Part shown: piece after piece, positions 13,247 through 18,159 of the stretch | How positions within the stretch are numbered: position 1 is the stretch's first letter | How the letters are laid out: every line of letters starts with the position of its first letter | Origin: Myxococcota bacterium | GTDB taxonomy: Bacteria > Myxococcota_A > UBA9160 > UBA4427 | Reading direction: 5' to 3' | Length of the DNA stretch: 64,000 nucleotides | NCBI GenBank assembly: GCA_029243605.1 | Contig: JAQWRT010000080.1 | Location: 1-64,000, forward strand | The notes under the pieces: generated by a model | Seen by the model: the letters and a program-made list of their open reading frames with translations, nothing else | Database searches by the model: none | What the model was told of the DNA's origin: nothing | Made by a program: the position numbers and the translations under genes

Positions 13247-16283
<3,037 letters not shown>

Positions 16284-16460
16284 TCTTTTCCTCCCCCATT
16301 CATCGCCGGGCTCCACCCTGGATGCGGCCGGCCGGCAGGCCGAGAGCATGCCGCGTCCCGGTCCGCTCCGCCCTTCCCCGAAAGAGCTCCCCGGAGGCCC
16401 AAAATTCCCTCAAAAGCGACAGGAAGAAGGAACCTCAAGTAACCGCTTTTAATAGCTTTT

Positions 16461-16521
16461 TTAACATTCATCGAATGGCGTTCTAAAATGAGATTGACAA
16501 CGCCCGAGGCCCCGGCATAAT
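16461..16521 (+). promoter_or_regulatory. Two tandem sigma-70 promoters facing right
   Basis: P1: TTAACA (16461-16466), 17-base spacer, TAAAAT (16484-16489). P2: TTGACA (16494-16499), 16-base spacer, CATAAT (16516-16521). Both are near consensus in an otherwise GC-rich region. No plus-strand protein gene follows for almost 30 kb, but a terminator lies about 290 bases downstream, so they probably drive a short stand-alone transcript. Confidence 0.65.
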
Positions 16522-16527
16522 GCGGGT

Positions 16528-16814
16528 GAGCGGTGCCGGAGTCGGCGGTGCTGTTCATCTCGGGAGACTCCGAGGGAGCGCAAAGCCAGCGACTCGCAGG
16601 CCCGCTCCAGAGTCCTTGAGGCGCCTGCTCTGGGTCAACCCAGGTCCAGCCGCAAGCGGAACAAATCCCAGCAAACCACAAAGGAATTGACAGTTTCGGA
16701 GCGGCGGTGGATTGGTCATTTCTACTCGAAATGTCCAACCTCTCACCCCCCAAATTGAGTCCACCGCCCCTCCCCTGTGATGCCCCGTCGGCCCTGAAGC
16801 CGGCGGGGTTTTTT
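16528..16814 (+). ncRNA. Candidate structured non-coding RNA of unknown family
   Basis: A transcript from P2 would be about 285 nt and end at an intrinsic terminator. Visible hairpins: GGAGCG (16575-16580) with CGCTCC (16603-16608), enclosing GCC-A-GCG/CGC-A-GGC with a 3-base loop; CCAGAG (16608-16613) with CTCTGG; CCGC-AA-GCGG near 16650-16659; GCGGTGGA (16704-16711) with TCCACCGC (16760-16767), enclosing an 11-bp arm pair 16712-16722/16728-16738 with one T-T mismatch. I looked for signatures of tmRNA, RNase P RNA, SRP RNA, 6S RNA and c-di-GMP riboswitches and found none that fit. An alternative is a small protein: a 56-codon frame runs 16520-16690 but lacks a ribosome-binding site. Confidence 0.55.
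16783..16814 (+). terminator. Intrinsic terminator on the plus strand
   Basis: Stem of 10 bp (16783-16792 with 16799-16808, one G-T pair), loop CCTGAA, followed by six T (16809-16814). The T tract is on the plus strand, so it ends rightward transcription, not that of the minus-strand neighbours. Confidence 0.85.
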
Positions 16815-16862
16815 CTTTCCAGGGGTCTTCCCAGGCATTTGTGGACGGGAGCACCGAAACGA

Positions 16863-16923: not shown

Positions 16924-18159
16924 TCAATCGACTCCGACGATGAAGCTGACGCTGGTCGTGCCGCTGCCGCCGATATTGAGGGTCTGAAAATTCTTAGCAC
17001 CCTCGACCTGATAGGCCCCGGCTTCTCCCGTGACCTGCAGGCAGCCATCGAGCAATTGCCGCACGCCCGTCGCGCCCACCGGATGACCCGCACCGATCAG
17101 CCCACCGCTGGGGTTGATGGGGTGGCGGCCGTCGATCTCGAGCCAGCCCTCCTCGATGGCCTTCCAGCTTTCGCCGGGAGCCGTCAGCCCAAAATGGTCG
17201 ATGGCCATGTACTCGGAGGTGGTGAAACAATCGTGGGTTTCGATCCCGTCGACGCCATTGGCATCGGCGATCCCGGCCCGCTCCCAGGCGCTCGTAATCG
17301 TGCTTCGCACGTGGGGCAGGACATATTCGTTGCCCTGGCTCTCGGCCACCTTGTCGTCGAATCGGAGCCGGGCCGTATTATGCCCCCAGCCCTTCAGACG
17401 AGGGATCGAGGAGAGGCTCTTGCCCATCCCCTTGGCGTAGCGCTCGGCGTATTCCCGTGAAGCCAGGAAGACACAAACTGCCCCATCCGTCACCTGGGAG
17501 GCATCGGCGATCCGAATCCGTCCGCCGATGGCGGGGTTGTCGTCGGTCCGGCAGAGGGCCTGCTCTTTGTTCATGTACCAGGTCCGGGTCTGGGCGTTGG
17601 GGTTCAGCTTGGCGTTGTCGTAATTGAGCCGGCTGATCTCTGCGAGGTGCTCGTCCTTCAGCCCGTAGCGCGCATCGTACTCATCGCCCAAACGCCCGAA
17701 GAGCTTGGGAAAGGGAAACTCGATGCCCTCGGCTTCCTGGTCGTACCAGGCGGCCGTCCCGAGGTAGTCGCCACCCACGTCCGCGGCGACTGTCTTCATC
17801 TGTTCGATCCCGACCACGGCCTGGAGGCCATAGCGACCGGCCTCGATCTCGGCGGAAGCCGCCAGCAGGGCAATGCTCCCCGAGGCACAGGCCGCCTCGT
17901 GACGACCGGTGGGCAGCCCGCTGAATTCCGGGTGGACTTCGGTGAAAAAGGCGCCCAGATGCCCCTGCATGCAATAGAGCTCGGCGGCAAAATTGCCGAC
18001 ATGGGCACTCTCGATCTCCTCGGGCGCAATCCCGCACTGCTCCAGCGCCCCGAGAACACCTTCCCGCATGAGTGCGGAGAAGTGCTTGTTCTCCTTTGTC
18101 CAGTTCCGCGCGAAATCCGTCTGATAACCGCCCAGCACATATACTTCGGAGTTGGCCAT
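16924..18159 (-). CDS. Thiolase-family acetyl-CoA acetyltransferase (SCP2-type)
   Basis: Protein of 411 aa in the thiolase superfamily, expected to cleave or condense acyl-CoA. The nucleophilic cysteine is Cys91 in [12 protein letters not shown]; the second active-site segment [10 protein letters not shown] and the glycine-rich [20 protein letters not shown] are also present. The HDCF form is typical of SCP-x-like thiolases rather than of PhaA or FadA, so substrate could be a medium or branched acyl-CoA. It lies 106 bp downstream of a 3-hydroxyacyl-CoA dehydrogenase on the same strand, which suggests consecutive beta-oxidation steps. Substrate range cannot be told from the sequence. Confidence 0.88.

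Follow-up and report, generated by a model that had tools for sequence, protein, structure and literature searches.

A small RNA gene divergent from miaB is conserved across a class of Myxococcota and carries a C-rich loop complementary to the ftsA and ftsZ ribosome-binding sites of five relatives

A segment on the plus strand of the 64,000-nucleotide stretch of Myxococcota DNA analysed here (the window) is a real small RNA gene, as judged from sequence-level evidence and without expression data. Its transcript exposes an invariant C-rich loop, which matches the ribosome-binding sites of ftsA and ftsZ where these can be examined, and the RNA is for this reason probably a built-in control of cell division, its regulation in vivo being inferred. 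The explanation that we consider likely is a trans-acting antisense small RNA (sRNA) that blocks the translation of FtsA and FtsZ via their ribosome-binding sites, in which both the pairing and the repression are predictions. The features of the locus are as follows.

14886-16292, minus strand: miaB (radical SAM, UPF0004), the divergent neighbour (Pfam, synteny)
16475-16493, plus strand: A-rich block adjoining the -35 element and including 'TAAAAT' (recurs in relatives)
16494-16521, plus strand: promoter, with -35 TTGACA at 16494-16499, a 16-nt spacer and -10 CATAAT at 16516-16521 (consensus match)
16528-16697, plus strand: transcribed leader, unconserved, with a GGAGCG hairpin and a 56-codon frame at 16520-16690 (promoter-core distance varies)
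16698-16773, plus strand: conserved sRNA core with an inner hairpin and a C-rich 3′ bulge (covariance model, covariation)
16698-16701/16770-16773, plus strand: closing end of the core, GGAG/CUCC
16703-16711/16760-16768, plus strand: outer stem (covariation)
16712-16738, plus strand: inner hairpin UUGGUCAUUUC-UACUC-GAAAUGUCCAA (fold and covariation)
16737-16752, plus strand: invariant 16-nt loop AACCUCUCACCCCCCA, largely unpaired, the proposed antisense seed (alignments)
16782-16816, plus strand: intrinsic terminator, hairpin 16782-16809 followed by a U tract (also at the loci of relatives)
16924-18159, minus strand: thiolase gene, the convergent neighbour (Pfam, synteny)

The promoter matches 11 of 12 consensus positions (0.1 such sites expected in the 2 kb scanned) and is the sole match to a near-consensus promoter pattern in the 64 kb window. 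Of 72 homologous loci, 62 have a similar promoter no more than 260 nt before the core; among 805 control windows, only 1 does. A preliminary description of the segment had placed two sigma-70 promoters in tandem, of which this one is borne out by its consensus and its recurrence. The other, at 16461-16489, is doubtful because its -10 element is the A-rich block of the relatives and its own -35 element is not kept in them, as judged by eye. This block, directly before the -35 element, is kept across the class, the relatives carrying 'AAAAT..cgtg/gaga' before TTGACA (alignment by eye); it is possibly an UP-element-like sequence for a very strong promoter, a role that is inferred. The transcription start is inferred at about 16528. 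The terminator described earlier is present and was detected at 70 of the 72 homologous loci. At the sequence level, the RNA thus qualifies as an independent transcript, with its own promoter and intrinsic terminator.

The preliminary description took 16461-16814 as the element, in which a functional part does lie, with the difference that it is narrower (16698-16816). The conserved core and terminator amount to about 120 nt, DNA conservation is strongest in 16693-16777 and in the terminator, and the covariance model R1, for which 50 sequences were used, matches 16692-16782 with an E value of 6.6e-23. The full transcript (16528-16816) has a folding energy of -129.7 kcal/mol, a z-score of -3.9 against shuffles. 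Both stems proposed earlier, the 16712-16738 hairpin and the one enclosing it, were recovered, the latter one pair longer than the 16704-16711/16760-16767 first given, and alignment of relatives revealed compensatory changes in each. Double-sided changes affect 7 of 17 pairs (1.9 in shuffles) and 15 alignment cells (2.5 in shuffles); 95.5% of the alignment cells are paired, and sliding the partners abolishes the covariation signal. Covariation therefore supports a fold in which a closed stem holds an inner hairpin and AACCUCUCACCCCCCA lies in the 3′ bulge. The plus strand is fixed by the promoter, the terminator and the many G-U pairs, which the opposite strand would have as A-C. The loop AACCUCUCACCCCCCA shows no variation in two alignments of 50 sequences each (A1 and A2), with the caveat that the collection scan itself demanded the motif. 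With 16 invariant nucleotides and a mean unpaired probability of 0.87, it fulfils what is required of a conserved unpaired seed.

Conservation in relatives was confirmed by a DNA search, which recovered the element from 53 of 61, and R1 finds one copy per genome in 76 of 91 class genomes (families f1-f8, f11 and f12). The class is apparently UBA9160, a class of Myxococcota in GTDB (PMC11937823), as suggested by an isolate of that name among the collection matches. When the 15 class members without a hit were searched again, in nearly all of them miaB was missing, was represented by a weaker paralogue only, or was cut at a contig end; in one (G020) the RNA is present, split across contigs. In G037, an intact locus upstream of miaB (L198) holds a diverged RNA of little sequence identity, in which the outer stem has 14 bp, an inner hairpin is present and a bulge of nine C occupies the same place (z -4.7). 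Picked by eye, it is no more than suggestive of a structural counterpart.

In the rest of the phylum, the model yields only two matches, with E values of 0.003 or worse (L087 and L088), which were rejected as homologues since they are weak and look chance-like by eye. When the regions upstream of 26 miaB genes were scanned with a structural descriptor, nothing with both promoter and terminator came up; the descriptor was too loose for this outcome to carry information. Scanning 84,980 species for the exact pattern returned 64 stretches. Almost all carry the label Deltaproteobacteria, Myxococcota/Myxococcales or unclassified bacteria, and many are on contigs that had already been recognised as belonging to the class; one (L138) was discarded as a chance match without RNA context. 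No viral contig matched the core motif, and a mobile origin was rejected on this ground and on the fixed synteny. The absence of an Rfam match, class-wide conservation and covariation, with nothing convincing outside the class, uphold the earlier view of a lineage-specific regulatory RNA without a recognisable family.

The search for targets used the exact complement of 11 loop bases, GGGGTGAGAGG. This 11-mer is rare and, genome-wide, is not enriched over a reversed control. Eighty exact sites outside the sRNA gene were fetched from 41 genomes and grouped by the proteins encoded there. The largest group of related sites is that of ftsA and ftsZ, identified by Pfam: five of the 80 sites immediately precede a start codon, that of ftsA in G038, G041, G036 and G043 and that of ftsZ in G015, with 0-3 nt between the complement and the ATG. 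These five genomes represent four families. In each of them, GGGGGGUGAG or a close variant forms the Shine-Dalgarno region of ftsA as well as that of ftsZ, with 7-14 nt complementary to the loop, and the extended form of the target, GGGGGGUGAG(AGG), spans the Shine-Dalgarno region. All sense-strand matches of at least 9 nt at the five division loci are at ftsA (five of five) or ftsZ (three of five). The partner genes carry GGGGGGTGA (ftsA of G015), GGGGGGTGAG (ftsZ of G041 and G036), GGGGGGTG (ftsZ of G038) and GGGGGGT (ftsZ of G043). Three of the five TIRs that were not used in the search carry matches of 9-10 nt, against an expectation of about 0.005. This figure rests on a background of 71 per 1.73 Mb, measured in 860 kb of the window's genome, and ignores the G-richness of ribosome-binding sites; because these are G-rich in general, the true excess is smaller.

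Predicted duplex energies at the division genes range from -19.1 to -36.3 kcal/mol; the background averages -10.5 (sd 4.6, n=1012). Seven of the ten sites are within the best 0.2% of the 1012 background start regions and the other three within the best 1.4-5%. As these three rank lower and the reversed loop also scores on them (-15 to -22), G-richness is part of the signal. Seed-target complementarity is thereby met for ftsA and ftsZ in five genomes and four families, not including the window's genome, and the figures were obtained without a comparison to Myxococcota lacking the RNA. In the window's own genome, the start regions of ftsA and ftsZ were not found in the approximately 0.8 Mb of 4.4 Mb that was read, and a search with the full 16-mer complement gave no near-perfect site, its matches not clearly outnumbering those of the reversed control. 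The remaining genomes lack the exact 11-mer, the only form searched there, at their ftsA and ftsZ starts. The target sites are present in G038, whose sRNA locus is truncated at the end of a contig.

Two other sets of sites were observed. Exact 11-nt complements lie just upstream of other predicted starts (L232:726 in G030, L245:694 and L246:711 in G041, and L277:710 in G011), which by eye include those of one protein resembling a lipoprotein and one membrane protein resembling a glycosyltransferase, and these are candidates for further targets. In addition, GGGGTGAGAGG occurs on the sense strand shortly after the stop codon of one gene in four genomes and families (L239, L242, L251 and L255), the product of which ends in the C-terminal motif SCxDCGxIMIRxGxCYKCxNCGxxSGCS; these are a possible further site of the RNA.

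Known sRNAs with C-rich loops usually have several targets. It could thus be argued that this RNA, too, acts on many mRNAs, that its main regulon lies elsewhere and that ftsA and ftsZ are a few of its targets or a coincidence, which would fit that habit and also an invariant loop of 16 nt, more than a single seed needs. The few other start regions with the 11-mer point the same way. However, ftsA/ftsZ is the only recurrent group of orthologous start-codon sites, the second gene of the pair matches although it played no part in the search, and the other group found in several genomes sits just past the coding sequence of an unrelated gene. A broad regulon of this kind therefore appears unlikely, while still deserving consideration.

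Absolute conservation of the loop would suit recognition by a protein just as well, and the nine-C bulge kept in the diverged RNA of G037 is compatible with a C-rich bulge that sequesters, or assembles with, a protein. The complementarity to ftsA and ftsZ would then be incidental, but such a role does not predict a complement so precisely placed and repeated at both genes, and we regard it as improbable.

Under the antisense reading, the transcript starts at the strong promoter and ends at the intrinsic terminator, as sequence and conservation show, and folds, with covariation in support, so as to expose AACCUCUCACCCCCCA in the 3′ bulge of the closed stem, beside the inner hairpin. The loop is inferred to pair with GGGGGGUGAG(AGG) over the Shine-Dalgarno sequences, directly upstream of the ftsA and ftsZ starts. 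Covering both ribosome-binding sites could keep ribosomes off, so that the synthesis of FtsA and FtsZ would be lowered together and division held back. The existence of the RNA, its fold and the complementarity are established as far as is possible without expression data; pairing in the cell, the repressive sign and the inducing condition are inferred only. A search for Hfq (PF17209) found none in 31 relatives and was positive in 5 of 14 control genomes. Dependence on Hfq, which requires a host that encodes it, is thus not supported in any of the 31, and the RNA is apparently independent of this chaperone. Since no Hfq was found, the C:G pairing, presumably stable, either could do without a chaperone or might rely on an unknown one. 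A wider proposal, that an ancient, class-wide and Hfq-free core-genome RNA sets FtsA and FtsZ jointly through twin Shine-Dalgarno sites on the division operon, loop and sites being selected together and the RNA being a standing part of division control in the class, is in our judgement evenly balanced between true and false.

Where homologous loci have flanking sequence, miaB almost always diverges from the RNA; on the other side of the RNA lies a convergent thiolase or VWA gene, a CoxE-type VWA gene in most relatives. The preliminary description had put it downstream of miaB; since miaB is transcribed away from it, the RNA is instead upstream and divergent. This constant position could indicate a cis element, either a leader or an antisense regulator acting on miaB or on the thiolase/VWA gene. 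Nevertheless, the RNA has its own promoter and terminator on the strand opposite to all its neighbours, that strand being defined by the G-U pairs and the terminator, and no plus-strand gene overlaps it, which makes control in cis very improbable. Its own signals and the lack of a nearby same-strand gene downstream mark it as a stand-alone gene.

The leader differs from the core in its conservation. Among the relatives, the distance from the -10 element to the core ranges from 7 to 217 nt (176 here), and the nearest relative (G001), with 38 nt, keeps query positions 19-94 and 234-391 and lacks most of the leader. Because of this variation, the leader hairpins and the 56-codon frame fall outside the conserved function, and the weight that the preliminary description gave to this half of the transcript is misplaced, conservation being in the 3′ core. 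The GGAGCG hairpin is indeed predicted, but it sits in the part mostly absent from G001. No second copy of the leader was found elsewhere in the window's genome, and a repeat or an inserted element was ruled out on this basis. The small protein gene that had been offered as a less likely alternative is refuted: the frame is open in the window's genome, but it cannot fit in leaders that reach down to 7-40 nt in relatives (38 nt in G001, 7-21 nt elsewhere).

Comparison with Rfam 15, which had been advised, gave no match in the region at the gathering threshold and no known class at relaxed thresholds; the best sub-threshold model was anti-hemB (18.2 against 49.5 bits), driven by the terminator. 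Like 6S RNA (RF00013), the miaB-linked RNA is small, structured and unpaired in an internal region, but the RF00013 model does not match it. A 6S identity, for which no fit had been seen before, was rejected, as there is no RF00013 match at the locus and G041 has a distinct 6S RNA alongside this one. A 6S RNA was recognised in just 2 of 31 relatives (L163:1501-1691 in G041 and L164 in G037), and a diverged 6S RNA, overlooked by the Rfam model, is probably present in the class.

This is a new RNA family, for which a covariance model is available, with a concrete predicted target pair, ftsA and ftsZ. A literature search of limited coverage found no earlier description of it. The ftsZ-repressing RNAs DicF and DinR, studied in enterobacteria, are lineage-specific or prophage-borne. 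If the antisense reading is true, RNA control would reach the basic division circuit of a major uncultured environmental lineage of Myxococcota.

Relative to DinR, DicF and Yfr1, the miaB-linked RNA stands apart in its motif, architecture and genomic neighbours and in its apparent Hfq independence. In Klebsiella pneumoniae, DinR binds the ftsZ mRNA where translation starts, so that the ribosome-binding site is occupied and division is inhibited; it is SOS-induced, cut from the dinI 3′ UTR and Hfq-dependent, with a Klebsiella-specific pairing region (PMC10907235). The proposed block at the ftsZ ribosome-binding site is similar, with the differences that the miaB-linked RNA has its own promoter, is class-wide, also matches ftsA and occurs where no Hfq was found. 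DicF, from the Qin prophage of E. coli, represses ftsZ by covering the Shine-Dalgarno sequence (PMC10907235), as is proposed here. However, DicF is prophage-borne and processed from a polycistronic message, whereas the miaB-linked RNA is a single-copy locus kept across its class, and no sequence relation between the two has been shown. Control of the FtsZ level by RNA was also proposed for the E. coli antisense RNA StfZ (PMC9628754), which is encoded in cis in the ftsA-ftsZ region, whereas the present RNA is encoded beside miaB. The miaB-linked RNA is also reminiscent of the cyanobacterial Yfr1 (54-69 nt), which is likewise lineage-wide, ends in an intrinsic terminator and has an unpaired motif, ACUCCUCACAC, that is conserved without exception (PMC2190773). 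The motif of Yfr1 lies between two hairpins, whereas that of the miaB-linked RNA is a different one, held in a bulge inside a closed stem.
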